A DNA stretch of 64,000 bases from the NCBI RefSeq assembly GCF_001269385.1, contig NZ_CXOO01000026.1, positions 124,001-188,000 of the forward strand, read 5' to 3'. Positions 30,877 to 38,612 of the stretch are shown here, in pieces (position 1 is the first letter of the stretch; each line of letters starts with the position of its first letter). A model generated the notes under the pieces. It did not search any database. It was not told the origin of the DNA and saw only the letters and a list, made by a program, of their open reading frames with translations. A program made the position numbers and the translations under genes. Source of the stretch: Limnohabitans sp. DM1. Its GTDB lineage: Bacteria > Pseudomonadota > Gammaproteobacteria > Burkholderiales > Burkholderiaceae_C.

Positions 30877-31022
30877 GGGGCAATCAGGGGGCAATTTGAG
30901 GGGGCATTCCCGGAAAGAAAAACGGGTCACGCCCTTGTGAGGCGTAACCCGTTGATTTAATTAGGAATAAATGGTCGGCGTGGCGGGATTCGAACTCGCT
31001 ACCCCTTGCACCCCATGCAAGT
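30877..31022. repeat. Left att-region duplicate (tRNA-Pro 3' fragment, terminator, G-rich arm repeats)
   Basis: This segment aligns without gaps from 30887 onward to 38451-38586 at an offset of 7,564 bases. It contains GGGGCAATCAGGGGGCAATTT, a terminator-like hairpin (30921-30953), and a 51-base copy of the tRNA-Pro 3' end (30972-31022), with one mismatch at 31000. The identity stops inside the tRNA anticodon stem at 31022, marking the left junction of the element. Confidence 0.9.
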
Positions 31023-31159
31023 TTTGTATTTTTTGTATTGCCTCATACATCAACCAAAACTTTAAAAATAATCATTTAAAATCAATGACTTATAAAGCTA
31101 AAGCCGAAAAATATTGTCCATCTGATTCCATCAAGATACACTGAGAGCCTGTAAAAACA

Positions 31160-31183
31160 GGGGGGCAATCAGGGGGGCAATTT
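31160..31183 (+). repeat. Integrase arm-type repeat, middle copy
   Basis: GGGGGCAATCAGGGGGGCAA followed by TTT lies 18 bases before the integrase start. It matches copies at 30877-30897 and 38438-38461. Direct GGGGGCAA units spaced 11-12 bases suggest binding sites for the integrase N-terminal domain. Confidence 0.65.
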
Positions 31184-31200: not shown

Positions 31201-32532
31201 ATGGCAAAGATCACCACCAAAGCACTGGAAGCCCTTAAGCACTCAGACCACGGCAAACGACTGGCAGACGGTGACCGCATGTTTGGCATCGTCCGGGCGG
31301 TCAAAAACGATCCTGAGGCTGTATCAGTTGATTTTGAGTGGCGTTACAACTTCGGGGGCAAAGTCCGACAGGTACGCATTGGCACATGGCCACGAATGAC
31401 ACTCAAAGCCCTGCGCGATGAACGCGATGCGCTCAAGGGAAAACTCAAAGATGGCATAGACCCGCTTGCCGAAAAAGAAGCCGACCGCCTGAAACAACAG
31501 GCCGACCAGATCGAGGCCAAGCAAACTCAGATCACCCGCCTGCAAGAACTCGCGGCCAAAGACGCCAGAATGACCGTCCGGGGCTTGTTTGAGTTATGGC
31601 AAAGCACAGACCTGAAGAAGCGCCAAGATGGAGGAAGTGAGGCGCTCAGAGCATTTGAGGCTGACGTTTTCCCGCTCATTGGTGACGTGGCAGCGGCTGA
31701 CGTGACCAAGGCGCACATTCAGCGAATCATTGACACCATGTTGGCCCGTGGCGTCAAACGCATGACCGAGCGGGTATTCAGCGACCTGCGCCAGCTTTTC
31801 GGCTTTGCATTGGATCGCGACCACATCGAGGCCGACCCGACCGCACGAATCAAAAAGCACAAGATCGGCGGCAGCGTGGAGCGTGATCGGGTTTTGTCTG
31901 AGGCTGAACTGATCGAGTTTTTCAATCGCCTACCTGAATCGGGTTTGGTGGCGTCATCCCAATGCGCCCTGACCATCCAGCTTGCAACCATCACCCGCAT
32001 CGGTGAAGTCTTGGGCGCACGGTGGGAGCATGTTGATTTTGAGCGGCGCATCTGGACACTGCCTGAGACCAAGAACGGCAAGCGGCACACGGTCAACCTC
32101 AATGACCTGGCCCTGAAGCAATTCGAAGCCCTGCGCCAGCACACCGGACTGACAGAATGGGTTTTCCCAGCATCGAGGTTGAACGGCCCGGTTTGCCCCA
32201 AAACCGTCACCAAGCAGGTGGCAGACAGGCAGCGCGGCGATGATGATCCCATGAGCGGCCGCAGCAAGCAGACCGATTCGCTGGCGCTGTCAGGCGGGCA
32301 ATGGCGACCGCACGACCTCAGGCGCACCGGGGCCACCCTCATGGCTGAATTGGGCGTTTTGCCTGACGTGATCGAGCGATGCCTGAACCACACCGAACAA
32401 ACCAAAGTAAAGCGCATCTATCAACGGGCGCAATATGAAGCCCCTATGCGCGAAGCGTGGAAGCGATTGGGAGATCGCTTAATCTTGTTGACCAACAAGC
32501 TTGATAACGTTGTAGTCCTCCTGAATCCGTGA
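31201..32532 (+). CDS. Tyrosine recombinase integrase (DUF4102/P4 type)
   Basis: 443 residues. An N-terminal DUF4102-like arm-binding domain (residues 1-90: GKRLADGD through GTWPRMTLKALRDERD) is followed by a coil, a core-binding domain, and the catalytic domain. The catalytic residues are R266 (ATITRIGEVLGARW), H371-x-x-R374 (RPHDLRRTGATL), H397 (CLNHTEQ) and nucleophile Y407 (RIYQRA). It lies at the left end of the element. Its last codons LNP and the TGA are supplied by the inserted IS; the uninterrupted gene would have ended in R-K-T-I-F. The catalytic core is intact, so activity is plausible. Confidence 0.92.
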   Translation: MAKITTKALEALKHSDHGKRLADGDRMFGIVRAVKNDPEAVSVDFEWRYNFGGKVRQVRIGTWPRMTLKALRDERDALKGKLKDGIDPLAEKEADRLKQQADQIEAKQTQITRLQELAAKDARMTVRGLFELWQSTDLKKRQDGGSEALRAFEADVFPLIGDVAAADVTKAHIQRIIDTMLARGVKRMTERVFSDLRQLFGFALDRDHIEADPTARIKKHKIGGSVERDRVLSEAELIEFFNRLPESGLVASSQCALTIQLATITRIGEVLGARWEHVDFERRIWTLPETKNGKRHTVNLNDLALKQFEALRQHTGLTEWVFPASRLNGPVCPKTVTKQVADRQRGDDDPMSGRSKQTDSLALSGGQWRPHDLRRTGATLMAELGVLPDVIERCLNHTEQTKVKRIYQRAQYEAPMREAWKRLGDRLILLTNKLDNVVVLLNP

Positions 32533-34215
32533 CCCGGCAATAAATCAGATTCTCCTGTTCTGATTTTCCCCAAACACCGCCACTTTCTTCGTGACACGCG
32601 CATTTCAATCAATATCCCGAGCTGTTTTCGCGCGTGTTTTCGCCCGCTCTCGACTGCCATGGGATGCATCTTCAAATTTGGCTTGCACCCATCCCCGCCG
32701 CTTTCATGCAGCTGCGTTTTCTGACCCCTCCATGGTGTTGCCGGTAACGACCCGGCTACGCGCCCCGCAACTGCCCGTAATGCAGCGCAAACACCTCAAA
32801 CGCCCCATCGTTGCGCCCCAAGCCCAGCACCAGCTGACCGGCATGGCTGATCATGCGTGCGGCCTTGCCCATCAACTCCTGGAGCACCGTTTTGATGCGC
32901 CTTCTCTTGGCCTTGTGGCGCACCGGCGAGCCCGGCTCGTTCAACGTGTGCTGGCCAATCAAGCGCAGCAAATTCATCGCCACCGCAGCCAACTGGCACA
33001 CCAAATAGTTGGTGTCGAATTTGCCCGAGGGCAAACGCTCCAAATCCATGTCACTCTTGAACTCCGAATGAAACTGCTCATGCGTGGCGTGATCACAGTA
33101 CAGCTCTATCACTTGCAGGGGCTTGAAGCTGGCATCCAACGTGGTCGTCCAGCCCTCCAGCACGTACTCGGGCAAGAGCAGAGGCTGGCCGTGCTTGTTG
33201 ATGGTGCGCTCAGTCAATCGATAAATGCGCCGCGCAGGGCATTTCTCAGAGCCCACTCGCTCGAGTTCCAGCGCCTCTTGCCACACGCAAAAGCGCTTGC
33301 CTTCGCGCTCCAGGCACCATTGCACCGTGGGGTCTGCGCTCCTTTTGGCGGCGATGGCCTCCACGGGTGTGGTGCGCGGGTTCCACTTGATGATGAAAGC
33401 CATCGCGTGCTTGCGCTCATTGGCTTGCGCGGTGATGGCTTGCATCAGCTTGAGCGAACAAAAGCCCGAATCGGCGCGCACCAACAAAGGGGTGTCCACC
33501 AAGCTCGCTGCCATGGGCAAGACGCGCTCAAGGTTGTACTCGCTCTCGTTGGCCGAGTGCTGGGTGCCAGGGCGCAAAGCCAGCTCCAGACAATAGCCCT
33601 CAGTGCCCAGATAGGCGGCCAAAGGGCAATAGCCATCAACCCCCGCGTAGGTGCGCCCCACCAGCTCTTTGCTGGTGCCGCTGTTGTCCATGGCAAAAGT
33701 GTCGATGTCCAGCGGCGTGTAGCCGCAGGGCAGCTGTCCGAAGTCAATCGGCTTGCCGTTGATGCGGCCACTCAGCAGCGCGGTATTGAGCTGCATTGCC
33801 AGATCAAACCAGTTGGCTGCATGGGCATTCATGCGCTGGCGCAGCGTGGGGCTCGAAGGCACGGTTTGCAGGCCCAGCGAGCGCTTGAAAAAGGCATCGG
33901 TGCGAAAGCCTTCGATGGTGTCGAAATCGTTCTTGCCCAGGCACAGCAAGCCCAGGTAGGAGCGCAAGATGCAGCTGTTGGCAACGCCCGAGCGAACGGG
34001 GAATTTGGGGTCGACGAGGGCGCTGAAGTTGATGCGCTTGAGATATTGACCGACAAGGGCCAGACCGGCATGGGAGCTGAGGTCGTAGGGGAGTTTCTTG
34101 ATAATGAAATCGGTCATGGGAAGGATCACCTGCGGGGTGAAGAGTACCTGATGACTAAGCGCTTGATTTCAATGGGGAAACGTCACTATCTCAGAGCTCA
34201 ACTCACGGATTCAGG
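32520..34215. mobile_element. IS1380-family insertion sequence (1,696 bp)
   Basis: Perfect 13-bp terminal inverted repeats CCTGAATCCGTGA (32520-32532) and TCACGGATTCAGG (34203-34215) enclose one transposase gene. The flanks show a direct repeat GTCCT at 32515-32519 and 34216-34220, a target-site duplication. Size and gene content fit the IS1380 family. It sits within the 3' end of the integrase gene. Confidence 0.9.
32756..34117 (-). CDS. IS1380-family transposase
   Basis: About 453 residues. The DDE-type transposase has blocks typical of the family: FAMDNSGTSKELVGRTYAG, LVRADSGFCS and THEQFHSEFKSDMDLERLPSGKF, carrying the expected acidic residues. The reading frame is intact between the inverted repeats, so the element may still be mobile. 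ATG 34117 is preferred to a GTG four codons upstream. It is transcribed opposite to the integrase. Codon use is GC-rich, unlike the surrounding cargo. Confidence 0.93.
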   Translation of the reverse strand: MTDFIIKKLPYDLSSHAGLALVGQYLKRINFSALVDPKFPVRSGVANSCILRSYLGLLCLGKNDFDTIEGFRTDAFFKRSLGLQTVPSSPTLRQRMNAHAANWFDLAMQLNTALLSGRINGKPIDFGQLPCGYTPLDIDTFAMDNSGTSKELVGRTYAGVDGYCPLAAYLGTEGYCLELALRPGTQHSANESEYNLERVLPMAASLVDTPLLVRADSGFCSLKLMQAITAQANERKHAMAFIIKWNPRTTPVEAIAAKRSADPTVQWCLEREGKRFCVWQEALELERVGSEKCPARRIYRLTERTINKHGQPLLLPEYVLEGWTTTLDASFKPLQVIELYCDHATHEQFHSEFKSDMDLERLPSGKFDTNYLVCQLAAVAMNLLRLIGQHTLNEPGSPVRHKAKRRRIKTVLQELMGKAARMISHAGQLVLGLGRNDGAFEVFALHYGQLRGA

Positions 34216-34516: not shown

Positions 34517-34726
34517 ATGAATGAAGCGATTCAACCCCCAGCCGCCCTTTTGGGCAGAAGTAAAGTTCAAGAACGAACCACACTGAGCCGTTCAAGTCTG
34601 TACGCCATGATCGCCCGTGGTGACTTTCCCGCCCCCGTGAAGATCAGCGGTCGGCGCGTGGCATGGCCCGAAGCAACTGTTAACGAGTGGATTCAATCGC
34701 GCATTGATTCCTCACCCACGATCTAA
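34517..34726 (+). CDS. AlpA-family transcriptional regulator/excisionase
   Basis: 69 residues. The MerR-like helix-turn-helix is visible as TTLSRSSLYAMIARGDFPAPVKISGRRVAWPEATVNEWI, split here as TTLSRSSLYAMIARGDF, PAPVKISGRRVAWP and EATVNEWI. AlpA-type proteins activate integrase genes or direct excision in P4-like elements. It is the first gene after the IS, 15 bases before the next ORF, on the integrase strand. Confidence 0.9.
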   Translation: MNEAIQPPAALLGRSKVQERTTLSRSSLYAMIARGDFPAPVKISGRRVAWPEATVNEWIQSRIDSSPTI

Positions 34727-34740
34727 ACAGGGGCGTAAAC

Positions 34741-35058
34741 ATGAATACCAGCACTATGACCTTCGGGTCAGGAATAGCCACGCCCAAAACCAGCAAACTC
34801 GCAACCATCCTTCAATTGTTTTTGCAGGGGTTAAGCCTGAACAGATTTGAAGCTGAGCGGCATCACGACCATTGTTTGCACAGCACCGTCAGCACCTTGC
34901 AGAACGGGCATGGCATTCTGATTGCCCGCGAGCATGAGTCGGTCCCTTGCAAGCAAGGCGCGGAAATGACAAGGGTTTGCAGATACCGCATAGACCCGCA
35001 TCCTGACAACATCAAACGAGCGCGTGACCTACTGGTGAAGCTGGAGCGCACAACATGA
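34741..35058 (+). CDS. Small HTH-like accessory protein of the mobilization module
   Basis: 105 residues. The pattern SKLATILQLFLQGLSLNRFEAER followed by HSTVSTLQNGHGILIARE is that of a winged-helix-like protein found beside relaxase or replication genes on mobile elements, usually assigned no function. Residues 1-20 look disordered. Its TGA overlaps the ATG of the relaxase gene (ATGA), so the two are probably translated together. A role in relaxosome formation or regulation is inference from position. Confidence 0.65.
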   Translation: MNTSTMTFGSGIATPKTSKLATILQLFLQGLSLNRFEAERHHDHCLHSTVSTLQNGHGILIAREHESVPCKQGAEMTRVCRYRIDPHPDNIKRARDLLVKLERTT

Positions 35059-36170
35059 GCGGGGCCGCTTTTCTGAAGCTGAAAAAGCTGACAGGCAGCG
35101 GCATCATAGGCAAGGCGGCACGCCATAACAGGCGTGTCATTCAGGCTGAGTTGGGCGCATCAGGACCAATTGACGTGACTCGCTCACACCTGAACATCAC
35201 TCTCATGGGGCCGTCAACAGCCGATGAAGTCGCCAAACTGGCCAAAGCCAAGATGATGGCAGCAGGTATCACCAAGGACCGGAAAAATGGGGTCATGGGC
35301 GTGGAGTTGGTTTTCAGTTTGCCGACAGATCACACGCATGACGTGACTACTTATTTCACTGCCTCCGCCCAATGGGCTGGCGCACAGTTTGGAGGCATGG
35401 ACAACATCGTGAGCGTGGACATTCACCGCGATGAAGCCCAAGACCATGCCCATGTTTTGCTTGTCCCATTGTTTGAGGGCCGCTTACGTGGGTCCGATGC
35501 GGTCGGCAACAAACGAAAGCTGAGCGAACTACAAACCAACTTTTACAACGCTGTGGCGGCGGGGTTTGGATTCAGCAAACCAAGGGCGCGACTGAGCGGC
35601 AACAATAAAGCACAGATCACCCGGCAGGTACTGGACAGGCTGCGTCAAGACCCAGTGGCAAAGTCGGCTGCGTGGGCGGTCATACGTGACAGCGTGGAGC
35701 GTGACCCCCAGCCCTATGCGCTGGCGCTGGGCATCACCATTACCGTGACCCCAAACAAACCCGCGAAGACCATGAGGCAGATTTTCACTGGCAATGGCAA
35801 GGGGCCGCGAAAAGAAAAACCTATAGGGTTTCAAACTGGAAAGCCCTATAGGGTTTCAGGGGGTGCCGATTTGCAAACCCTAGGTCACTGTAGGGAATCG
35901 ATTTCCAAACAACAGAGCAAGGCACCAGAAGCGCCAGCACCTCAAAGCACAATGGGGGGGACGGTGAATACGAAACAGCATGAAGCCGAACAGCCTGGAC
36001 GGCAAGCGGCTGAGTTGGGCCAGATCGTTAGGATTCGTGAGTGTGATTTTCCAGCTGGTAGCTACGACCCGGACACTGGCGATTTCTATCCCCAAATACC
36101 AGCACGAAAATCAGCGAAAGCCGAAGCTGATCACTGGGTGAGGGAGGCACTTCATGGAGCCCACGGCTAG
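35055..36170 (+). CDS. MobV/Mob_Pre-type relaxase
   Basis: 371 residues. The N-terminal relaxase motif I is present as R-H-N-R-R with H24 (as in MobM of pMV158, H-N-E-R), followed by TRSHLNITLMG, equivalent to the SRSHLNYEL block of MobM. Motif III is H124-R-D126-E127-A-Q-D-H131-A-H133 (HxDE-x3-HxH, then VLLVP), the metal site. This should nick the element at an oriT for mobilization. The C-terminal third is variable and ends shortly after a region with DNA-level repeats. No type IV secretion genes are nearby. Confidence 0.85.
   Translation: MSGAAFLKLKKLTGSGIIGKAARHNRRVIQAELGASGPIDVTRSHLNITLMGPSTADEVAKLAKAKMMAAGITKDRKNGVMGVELVFSLPTDHTHDVTTYFTASAQWAGAQFGGMDNIVSVDIHRDEAQDHAHVLLVPLFEGRLRGSDAVGNKRKLSELQTNFYNAVAAGFGFSKPRARLSGNNKAQITRQVLDRLRQDPVAKSAAWAVIRDSVERDPQPYALALGITITVTPNKPAKTMRQIFTGNGKGPRKEKPIGFQTGKPYRVSGGADLQTLGHCRESISKQQSKAPEAPAPQSTMGGTVNTKQHEAEQPGRQAAELGQIVRIRECDFPAGSYDPDTGDFYPQIPARKSAKAEADHWVREALHGAHG
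35819..35885 (+). repeat. Iteron-like repeats inside the relaxase gene
   Basis: CCTATAGGGTTTCA occurs at 35820-35833 and 35845-35858 in direct orientation, and AAACCCTAGG at 35876-35885 is an inverted, slightly shorter version. The two direct copies are in different reading frames, so they are not a protein repeat. They may be binding sites or part of oriT. Confidence 0.6.
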
Positions 36171-36269: not shown

Positions 36270-36509
36270 CTACGAAAATTTTCGAGTGAGCCCGATGATC
36301 GCTGCGATAAGAAAAAAACCGCCCCACATTTTGAACAGCGCTCGCTCACCAGCAAAATGCAATACCAGACCGCTCAGAACCATAAACAAGATTGCCGGAC
36401 CAGATAGCCCAGAATCTCCATCATCCAAGATGTTTCCAGCGCGATCAATTTGCGCCTGAACTGCTACGCTATTCAAAGCTATCGCCAAGTGGATCAATAA
36501 TTTCTTCAT
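36270..36509 (-). CDS. Small exported or membrane protein of the element (cargo gene 5)
   Basis: 79 residues starting MKKLLIHLAIALNSVAVQAQ, a clear signal peptide. The mature part starts I-D-R-A-G-N-I-L-D-D-G-D-S-G and has two hydrophobic stretches (AILFMVLSGLVLHF and MWGGFFLIAAIIGL), so it is probably an inner-membrane protein. I recognise no family. It is the last gene in the minus-strand cargo operon and is more AT-rich than the chromosome. A longer in-frame start at 36608 lacks a leader at its N-terminus. Confidence 0.55.
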   Translation of the reverse strand: MKKLLIHLAIALNSVAVQAQIDRAGNILDDGDSGLSGPAILFMVLSGLVLHFAGERALFKMWGGFFLIAAIIGLTRKFS

Positions 36510-36556
36510 AGATCGAGCAATGTATCGACTCAGGGTGGTTTTTCTCGTGGTGTAAC

Positions 36557-36841
36557 TTATTCGACCTCGATGGTCGCTGGGCAAAAGCCACCTCGAATGG
36601 TCACCCAAAATTTGTCAAAGCCCGTTGTGTACTCGCACTTTACGATTTGCTGACCTGTAACGGAGGTTGCGTATTCCATGCGCCCAGTATGTGTGGCCAT
36701 CATGGCAAAGACCGCACCAGAAAACGTCATTGCCAAGAGCGATATCACAGCACTGCGTTTGATCCGATTCATCGCTAAAAAATCGCTGGTTGACTGTTCT
36801 GCGGATTTGTTCTGCAAAGAATTTTCATTTTGATAAATCAT
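36557..36841 (-). CDS. Small membrane-anchored or exported protein of the element (cargo gene 4)
   Basis: 94 residues. A polar N-terminus of about 25 residues precedes a hydrophobic segment (AVISLLAMTFSGAVFAMMA), then a polar domain with two Cys (IVKCEYTTGFDKFWV and GGFCPATIEVE) that could form a disulfide outside the cytoplasm. No family was recognised. ATG 36841 overlaps the 3' end of the preceding cargo gene by 17 bases, so it is probably translated together with it. Confidence 0.55.
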   Translation of the reverse strand: MIYQNENSLQNKSAEQSTSDFLAMNRIKRSAVISLLAMTFSGAVFAMMATHTGRMEYATSVTGQQIVKCEYTTGFDKFWVTIRGGFCPATIEVE

Positions 36842-37268
36842 TTTGATTTTTCCCAATTTCTCTATTAAAGCGCTGAATTAATGTCTCTGGTGCTTGTGGC
36901 GGTTTGCAATCCAGTTCGGTGATGCGATATGACCCCATCACTTTGTTATCTAAGGTCAGGTACAGTGAGTTAAGCCCCTTCAGCCCTGAGGGAAAGAGGC
37001 CACTCATTTTGCCGTCACACAGTTCTGAGGCCATCAATTCTTTCAAGCCAGATATAACCTTGGGGTAGTTGGCTCTGGACGAATGAGGTGAATCGATCTT
37101 GTAGACATAAAAAACTTCGTTGTTGTGGCTGTCCGCTGAGATAGCAGTTGTCATACTATCGATGCGCTTGGGTAATTTTGCTTTTAGTGCCTCCGCCATT
37201 TCTTGCGCAACACCAGCATGCGATAGGGTTGTAAACATTGCCATTACGAGGGCTGAGATGTATTTCAT
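36825..37268 (-). CDS. Exported protein of unknown family, paralogue 3 (cargo gene 3)
   Basis: 147 residues with signal peptide MKYISALVMAMFTTLSHA. The mature part shares a pattern with the next two upstream genes: P-K-R-I-D-S-M-T-T, then GLKELMASELCDGKMSGLFPSGL, then a Y-x(5)D segment and a C-terminal ELDC. The two conserved Cys (C-D-G-K and L-D-C-K) probably form a disulfide. It adds a 20-residue charged tail. No known function. Start ATG 37268 is chosen for the leader; an ATG 12 codons upstream exists. Confidence 0.7.
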   Translation of the reverse strand: MKYISALVMAMFTTLSHAGVAQEMAEALKAKLPKRIDSMTTAISADSHNNEVFYVYKIDSPHSSRANYPKVISGLKELMASELCDGKMSGLFPSGLKGLNSLYLTLDNKVMGSYRITELDCKPPQAPETLIQRFNREIGKNQNDLSK

Positions 37269-37300
37269 CAATGTAATTCCACTCAATTCGTTGGGCCGTT

Positions 37301-37684
37301 TCACTGCGGCTTACAGTCATCCTTTGAGATCGCATAACCGAAGAGCATCGTGCCATCTTTTGCAAAATACACGGCCCGGAGATAGCGAAGCCCAGCAGGA
37401 AACAAACCGCTCATCTGGCCCTTGCAAAGTTCTTCAACCATTAGACTTTTCATGCCCTCTGCAAAGATTTTTTTCTTCGCCTCGCTGTGAGTTGATACGT
37501 CTACACCGTAGGTGTACCAAAGCTCGTCCCCTTTCGCTTTAACGCTCAATAGCGTGGTCATGAAGTCGAGTTTTTTTGGAAGATATGGCTTGACTGCTTT
37601 TTCTACATCGTCCGCCACGCCTGCGTATGACAAAGTAGCAAATGATGCGAGAGCAATGACTACTACTGATACGACACGTTTCAT
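37301..37684 (-). CDS. Exported protein of unknown family, paralogue 2 (cargo gene 2)
   Basis: 127 residues with signal peptide VVSVVVIALASFATLSYA. Shared pattern: LPKKLDFMTTLLSVKAKGDELWY, then GMKSLMVEELCKGQMSGLFPAGL, then MLFGYAISKDDC. It is the shortest paralogue and ends at the conserved second Cys. ATG 37684 gives a leader aligned with the paralogues and has GGGGGCGAA before it; another ATG at 37723 overlaps the previous stop (ATGA). The family is unknown to me. Confidence 0.7.
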   Translation of the reverse strand: MKRVVSVVVIALASFATLSYAGVADDVEKAVKPYLPKKLDFMTTLLSVKAKGDELWYTYGVDVSTHSEAKKKIFAEGMKSLMVEELCKGQMSGLFPAGLRYLRAVYFAKDGTMLFGYAISKDDCKPQ

Positions 37685-37719
37685 TTCGCCCCCAAGTCTT
37701 GCATGTTCATATTTCATGC

Positions 37720-38145
37720 TCATTTCGTTTTCCCTTCCATCAGGCGTTTGATATTTTCTGTGGTGCCAGCGGGTGGATGAGCGCAATCGTTTTTTGTGAT
37801 GCTGAAGTTAAACATCAATTTGTCATCTTTGGAAAAGTACCCGGCGTGGTATCCGATCAACCCTGAAGCAAACCAACTGCTTACCTTGCCGTTGCACAGC
37901 TCTTCAGTCATCAGTCCCTTAAGTCCATCACCGATAGCTTTGTTGTTAGCTCCGTTGTCAGCGGGAGTATTGACCTTGAAGATGAAATACACAGCGTTGT
38001 TTTTTGCTCCAACGTTTACAAGCGTGGTCATGCCGTCAATCTTTTGTGGCAGGTAAGGTTTGTTCTTGTCTGCAATTTCTTCTGCAATACCAGCATTTGT
38101 CACAGTTGCGATTACTGAGAGCCCGAGGGTCGCGATACGTTTCAC
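37720..38145 (-). CDS. Exported protein of unknown family, paralogue 1 (cargo gene 1)
   Basis: 141 residues, starting at a GTG with signal peptide KRIATLGLSVIATVTNA. Shared pattern: LPQKIDGMTTLVNVGAKNNAVYF, then GLKGLMTEELCNGKVSSWFASGL, then DKLMFNFSITKNDC. It carries about 16 polar residues after the second Cys. It is first in the cargo operon; the preceding 290 bases hold no ORF but do hold a nested inverted repeat. The function is unknown; a periplasmic location is inferred. Confidence 0.7.
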   Translation of the reverse strand: MKRIATLGLSVIATVTNAGIAEEIADKNKPYLPQKIDGMTTLVNVGAKNNAVYFIFKVNTPADNGANNKAIGDGLKGLMTEELCNGKVSSWFASGLIGYHAGYFSKDDKLMFNFSITKNDCAHPPAGTTENIKRLMEGKTK

Positions 38146-38437: not shown

Positions 38438-38535
38438 GGGGGGCAATCAGGGGGGCAATTTGAGGGTTCAGATCCGGAAAGAAAAACGGGTCACAGCCTT
38501 GTGAGCTGTAACCCGTTGATTTCATTACGAATAAA
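38438..38535. repeat. Right arm-type repeats and tRNA-Pro downstream region
   Basis: Contains GGGGGGCAATCAGGGGGGCA then ATTT (38438-38461), matching the copies at 30877 and 31160, and then the terminator of tRNA-Pro. This segment is the counterpart of 30877-30971. Confidence 0.75.
38476..38517 (-). terminator. Rho-independent terminator of tRNA-Pro
   Basis: On the minus strand AACGGGTTACAGC pairs with GCTGTGACCCGTT around a TCACAAG loop and is followed by TTTCTTTCC. The left duplicate (30921-30953) differs at two stem base pairs, and both partner bases changed, keeping the stem. Confidence 0.88.
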
Positions 38536-38612
38536 TGGTCGGCGTGGCGGGATTCGAACTCGCGACCCCTTGCACCCCATGCAAGTGCGCTACCAGGCTG
38601 CGCTACACGCCG
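38536..38612 (-). tRNA. tRNA-Pro (GGG), integration target
   Basis: A 77-base cloverleaf: acceptor CGGCGTG/CACGCCG, discriminator A, encoded CCA, anticodon loop ATGGGGT (anticodon GGG), T arm GCGAGTTCGAATCCCGC. The element joins inside its 3' half, and the tRNA stays intact because the element carries the missing 3' part. Confidence 0.98.

Follow-up and report, generated by a model that had tools for sequence, protein, structure and literature searches.

Three tandem exported proteins with a predicted AspS/PA3611-like fold as cargo of a small mobilizable element in Limnohabitans

A minus-strand cargo block of five small genes

The 64,000-nt stretch analysed here (the window; G000:C26:124001-188000) belongs to the 4.9-Mb genome of Limnohabitans sp. 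DM1. It carries three tandem paralogous genes, A, B and C, whose products are predicted to be exported and to share the fold of AspS, EpsS and PA3611, and which form one block with two smaller genes, D and E, as cargo of a small integrative mobilizable element (IME):

37720..38145, minus strand: gene A (P0001, 141 aa), putatively exported protein with the AspS/PA3611 fold in a predicted model
37301..37684, minus strand: gene B (127 aa; within P0003), putatively exported paralog; ATG at 37684
36825..37268, minus strand: gene C (P0002, 147 aa), putatively exported paralog; ATG at 37268; same fold in an independent model
36557..36772, minus strand: gene D (71 aa), small, putatively exported two-Cys protein, TGQQ..KCEY..CP.TIEVE
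36270..36509, minus strand: gene E (79 aa), signal-like N-terminus and one or more hydrophobic segments, by eye

All five genes lie on the minus strand, in keeping with the single operon proposed in an initial annotation of this DNA. The start/stop overlaps on which that proposal also drew were not found: with starts that yield signal peptides, the intergenic gaps are 35, 32, 52 and 47 nt, and genes overlap only when alternative upstream starts (e.g., GTG 37304) are taken. The ATG of gene B at 37684 is preceded by a good Shine-Dalgarno sequence, by eye.

Genes A, B and C are 39.5-41.9% identical in pairs over 124-129 aa (E 3e-37 to 2e-35), values that place their likeness beyond chance. Each has a hydrophobic N-terminal stretch by hydropathy. 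The description of three tandem paralogous exported proteins stands. Their first 40 residues contain no lipobox pattern. From hydropathy and the lipobox pattern, on which the export call was made, we infer that A, B and C are exported, soluble and unlipidated. The residues invariant among them are L32 P33, D37, M39 T40 T41, E82 L83 C84, G86, S89, F92, G95 L96, Y103 and D120 C121. The alignment thus retains the MTT, LC-G-S-F-GL and D-C blocks recognised earlier, except that the central block reads ELCxG[KQ][VM]Sxx-F-x-[SA]GL, where each protein has E at the position given earlier as [GE]. The two invariant cysteines, 37 residues apart, are the sole cysteines of each protein and, as had been suggested, are consistent with a predicted C84-C121 disulfide.

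Searches of Pfam, NCBIfam, PADLOC and PHROGs with the three proteins returned no match that passed a curated cut-off or had an evident meaning. That they are real genes is supported by two homologs: P0004, on a 4270-bp JGI contig, is 73% identical to gene C, and P0005, on a 2087-bp ENA contig, is a fusion (possibly an assembly error) whose modules are 64% identical to A and 65% identical to B, in the order of the window. DUF4854 recurred below its cut-off of 28 bits, at 24.8 bits (E 3e-5) in P0005, 13.6 bits in the distant member L065 and 12.8 bits in gene B, which may point to a connection with another family.

The two small membrane proteins of the initial annotation fared differently. Gene E probably encodes a membrane protein, judging from its sequence, and has no family match in Pfam, NCBIfam, PADLOC or PHROGs. 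Gene D is better described as a small exported two-Cys protein; it has one relative (38% identity) in another genus, in 1 of 348 other genomes of the family sample, and none in viral contigs, plasmids or 89 other genomes of the genus. PADLOC gave one irrelevant weak match (MTase_II, 13.3 bits) across five proteins.

The cargo lies on an integrative mobilizable element at tRNA-Pro

The block is framed by the following features:

30887..31022: left, attL-like copy of a 136-nt direct repeat, comprising the 3′ part of tRNA-Pro and the terminator region
31201..32532, plus strand: tyrosine integrase (Phage_integrase, Arm-DNA-bind_3; 80.9 bits against a cut-off of 27.1)
32520..34215, minus strand: IS1380-family insertion sequence (transposase 32756-34129; NF033539, 322.6 bits)
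34517..34726, plus strand: AlpA-type excisionase/regulator (51 bits against a cut-off of 21)
35055..36170, plus strand: MobV/Mob_Pre relaxase (Pfam Mob_Pre, 61.6 bits; cut-off 25.5)
38451..38586: right, attR-like repeat copy of 136 nt, which covers a terminator-like hairpin and 51 nt at the 3′ end of tRNA-Pro
38536..38612, minus strand: tRNA-Pro(GGG), the integration target

The two 136-nt repeat copies are 91% alike and 7564 nt apart, and the copy at tRNA-Pro includes the terminator-like hairpin of 14 pairs. Between them lies a 105-aa open reading frame (ORF) besides the integrase, IS1380, AlpA, relaxase and minus-strand cargo genes. Against the NCBIfam MobV model the relaxase scores 84.2 bits, below the cut-off of 100. 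GC content is 46% in the cargo, 55-57% in the relaxase and integrase genes and 60-61% in the flanks. The integrase, att repeats and MobV-type relaxase bear out the mobilizable integrating element first proposed, and there is strong support that the cargo genes sit on a small IME at tRNA-Pro in Limnohabitans.

The relaxase was found at E≤1e-20 in 5 of the 100 relatives searched, the window's own genome included. Its closest counterpart, in G027 (69% identical), belongs to a sister element with a related integrase, AlpA and att repeats at tRNA-Pro, 6017 nt apart, whose cargo slot (L023:4522-6888) holds small proteins unlike the window's three. Four of these, when scanned, gave no Pfam match at E≤0.01; two appear exported and Cys-rich by eye. 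The profile of the three window proteins (A1) had no match at E≤0.001 in the other four relaxase-bearing genomes among the 100 relatives. The cargo slot is thus exchangeable, as judged on one complete sister element.

In its integrase, att duplicated at a tRNA, own MobV-type relaxase, 5-15 kb size range and exchangeable cargo, the element resembles canonical IMEs. It also resembles them in that no coupling-protein, mating-pore or further transfer gene was found among its scanned ORFs. It differs from the canonical IMEs of a 2017 review in being proteobacterial, since passages of that review state that none had then been described in Proteobacteria (PMC5704250).

The IS1380 copy has 13-bp terminal inverted repeats (32520-32532 / 34203-34215), the left of which coincides with the final 13 nt of the integrase ORF, so that the insertion sequence supplies the last integrase codons; without it, the element would approach the 6.0-kb size of its G027 sister. 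A 29-nt G-rich repeat stands beside both att ends, with a further copy at 31155-31183 just upstream of the integrase gene, and is possibly a binding site for the integrase or AlpA. A promoter scan was uninformative.

A wider family in varied settings

A single-sequence homology search returned the window's own protein only. No relative was found when genome contigs were scanned with A1, when plasmid records were searched by tblastn with genes A and B, when phage records were searched by tblastn with P0005, or when IMG/VR viral contigs were searched with A1, P0018 and A9; profile A3 detected only the own genome among 250 genomes of the family. More relatives were reached only via same-genus intermediates. 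Among the 100 relatives, A1 gave two weak same-genus matches (E 3.6e-4 and 4.6e-4), both of whose full ORFs carry the C, Y, C pattern, in one case beyond the matched part. With one of these two, from G017, as query, 7 of 90 genus genomes matched at E≤0.01, namely G017, five others and the window's own, where the match was gene B (E 0.009). Of 2282 candidates, 59 proteins then matched a ten-row profile at E≤0.1; P0001 is on this list, which is not exhaustive given that genes B and C and P0004 are absent from it.

The resulting alignment (A6) has 49 rows, comprising 43 of 62 P-numbered proteins and 6 loci; left out by eye were 19 P proteins, mostly near-duplicates or shorter, with the two-domain P0005 among them. 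A6 detected members at E≤0.001 in 7 of 369 genomes of the class, the own included, and the other six belong to six different genera (E 4e-7 to 3e-15). Five of these six distant matches were read; for L067, the matched frame differs from that of the listed ORF. The domain occurs as an exported protein, in N-terminally anchored form, in two copies (P0005, L068) and as a C-terminal domain (L064). Family members had no match over the cut-off in NCBIfam (10 proteins) or Pfam (6 proteins), and weak Pfam names (MCEL_GT_NTPase, DUF1456 and others) were set aside as scattered and sub-threshold. The cysteines are 37 apart in 59 of the 62 P proteins, the exceptions being P0051, which lacks one, and the shorter P0054 and P0062. 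In distant members the spacing is 37 (L064, L066 and both L068 domains), 36 (L063) or 35 (L065). Residues P33, D37, T40, C84 and C121 are invariant in the enlarged family profile, A11.

Among the settings of relatives looked at, only the window's set was shown to lie inside an element. A family gene and a neighbouring lipoprotein gene come after tRNA-Met in G026, where a search around the gene for a duplicated tRNA end gave only a 19-nt match. In G039 such a pair adjoins two ORFs resembling a split integrase. The G350 relative comes after tRNA-Pro, with no direct repeat of at least 25 nt around it. No tRNA or integrase was noticed beside the genes in G017, G347 and G372; an IS21-like helper lies near the G347 gene, by eye.

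Three further arrangements were observed. The distant members L027:6240-6707 (G350) and L028:6387-7013 (G017) stand beside a sigma-54-activator gene (Pfam, G350), with tRNA-Pro in G350 and a UmuC-like gene in G017 (by eye) as the other neighbour, in a stretch syntenic with the chromosome adjoining the window's element. Recent capture by the element of this resident gene beside tRNA-Pro is not supported, the G350 protein being <20% identical to gene A. Anchored members at L014:875-1791, L029:305-1307 and L031:2350-3312 each come with a small lipoprotein (GCSTLT...GNIIFGGGIGAIIDHN), possibly as a two-gene module; the L014 copy has no Pfam match at E≤0.01. At L064:1-2931 the domain is the C-terminus of a 477-aa protein adjoining an ORF for a 493-aa ClpP-like membrane protease (by eye).

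The predicted fold is that of AspS, EpsS and PA3611

The fold was read from two predicted models, of genes A and C, one of them built with four close sequences only. Both have the alpha/beta pilotin fold, and in Foldseek searches with both, AspS, EpsS and PA3611 were the only PDB matches at E≤0.001; by VIA the same three rank well above unrelated rows. The modelled element order, helix-(short strand)-strand-strand-helix-helix-strand-strand-helix, agrees with the five strands and four helices of AspS given in passages of the published accounts, which place the AspS and EpsS disulfide, Cys74-Cys111, between helices 2 and 4 (PMC3542185, PMC6532946). The A11 profile gave significant links by hhalign, indicating that the sequence link is real for the enlarged family, although the window trio by itself does not reach it. 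The models thus strongly support an AspS/EpsS/PA3611 alpha/beta fold for A, B and C and, with the enlarged profile, supersede the earlier statement that no family could be recognised. A BFVD structure search gave nothing at E≤0.001.

The window proteins resemble the AspS/GspS-beta pilotins in their cysteine pair 37 apart, for which a disulfide is predicted here. Unlike the type II secretion system (T2SS) pilotins AspS and EpsS (GspS-beta, PF16549), they lack a lipobox and T2SS neighbours and are tandem paralogs on a mobile element, where the adjoining genes are mobile-element genes. PF16549 matched neither the window proteins (E≤1) nor anything in the own genome (E≤0.1), and it matched 6 of the 49 A6 members at E≤0.1 (best 0.0017). 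PA3611/QSregVF (PF13652, DUF4146) is similar in predicted fold, export and absence of a lipid anchor, the last as stated in parts of the accounts cited above (PMC3542185, PMC6532946). It differs in that the cysteines are 38 apart in ten aligned PF13652 proteins, compared with 37 in the window, and in that PF13652, over its cut-off in 11 of 299 genomes, occurs just once in each of these, compared with three in tandem; it had no match in the own genome at E≤0.01.

A putative role as periplasmic adaptors

In AspS and EpsS, a helix of the secretin S-domain is bound in a pocket over the sheet, according to passages of the same papers (PMC3542185, PMC6532946). By analogy, the helix-flanked beta-sheet pocket of the window proteins would bind an amphipathic helix of a partner, the C84-C121 disulfide joining, if formed, the helix that ends at C84 to the C-terminal helix. 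Three diverged copies would mean three partners or a multi-subunit adaptor, and the first candidate partner would be a secretin. Lacking the lipid anchor that piloting by the Lol route requires, the proteins would stabilise a secretin, compete for it or block it. The AspS-like pocket and the missing anchor together led us to propose a soluble periplasmic adaptor: we give roughly 40% probability to A, B and C being exported, soluble, triplicated AspS-fold cargo that serves as putative periplasmic adaptors for a helical partner. Such proteins may act on a cell-envelope machine.

By our reading, the own genome holds a GspD-like secretin (contig C42; type assigned by eye), a PilQ-like one (C3) and a weak third on C16, a secretin-like lipoprotein (L042) that is R64 PilN-like by eye. 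The neighbour of the C16 secretin resembles R64 thin-pilus PilN/PilO, also by eye, which suggests a gene cluster for a conjugation pilus that might assist mobilisation of the element.

Several observations weigh against the adaptor proposal. No secretion gene lies near the operon, and the C-terminus of the GspD-like secretin is a Pro/Ala-rich tail in which a Vibrio/AspS-type S-domain helix was not seen by eye. Even where A11 matched significantly, hhalign gave probabilities of just 75 and 35. With the window trio alone, 8 of 100 shuffles scored equally high against the AspS profile and 16 of 100 against PF13652; A6 against PF13652 was not significant (10 of 100 shuffles), and the AspS and PF13652 profiles scarcely match each other (E 0.031). 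The superpositions are loose, with rmsd 3.4-4.5 by VIA and 5.2 and 5.7 in two Foldseek rows. Two of the pocket-floor positions are hydrophobic throughout A6 and two are otherwise, the equivalents of Ile91 and Tyr73 being hydrophobic in 8% and 65% of members, and the Ile48 equivalent, set by the HMMER alignment, shifts in the MAFFT alignment. A common fold, moreover, does not establish function.

Among the alternatives, a host-benefit chaperone role, in which A, B and C would stabilise proteins of the envelope or of the secretome, is conceivable though improbable. Dunstan et al. reportedly suggested that PA3611 might stabilise secretins, yet the role of PA3611 is itself unsettled and nothing links the operon to a secretion locus. 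We consider it unlikely that the genes form an exclusion module, which would act in the periplasm by binding or blocking a secretin or the assembly of type IV pili and so give resistance to dependent phages or competing elements. Such a module would suit a mobile cargo of several small exported proteins with the fold of secretin-binding proteins, in a genome with GspD-like, PilQ-like and, by our reading, R64 PilN-like secretins; however, the phage and plasmid searches made gave no relative, no defence match was obtained, and relatives also occur in seemingly ordinary chromosomal settings (by eye). The defence or surface-exclusion role in the initial annotation is accordingly kept as a guess. 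Quite unlikely, too, is a released factor acting outside the cell. PA3611, with which the fold is common, is described as a secreted protein in passages of one report (PMC8860233), and the N-termini are signal-like, but a route out of the periplasm is only putative and many relatives seem anchored by an N-terminal hydrophobic segment. A PD-(D/E)XK-type enzyme of similar topology, prompted by weak Foldseek likeness, never reaching E≤0.001, to cap-snatching endonucleases, Rai1/DXO and PD-(D/E)XK proteins of phages, was rejected as highly improbable, as the A11 invariants contain no D...(D/E)xK signature and the proteins look exported.

Beyond the adaptor proposal, one may speculate, as a long shot, that AspS-fold domains form a widespread family of exported helix-binding adaptors that Pfam and NCBIfam leave unnamed, with soluble, membrane-anchored, tandem and fused forms, and that freshwater mobile elements carry soluble decoys capturing secretin tails and so controlling pilus, secretion or phage traffic.

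Significance

Among the titles and abstract openings listed in searches of the open-access literature, none describes this unnamed AspS-fold branch. Three hypothetical exported proteins are now predicted to belong to a fold superfamily for which structures have been solved and a binding pocket is known. The AspS/PA3611 fold, hitherto described for pilotins of Vibrio and for one Pseudomonas protein whose role is unsettled, is predicted to reach an unnamed branch, here on a mobile element. Should one of the proteins bind a secretin, mobile DNA would gain a periplasmic handle on pili, secretion or phage export.
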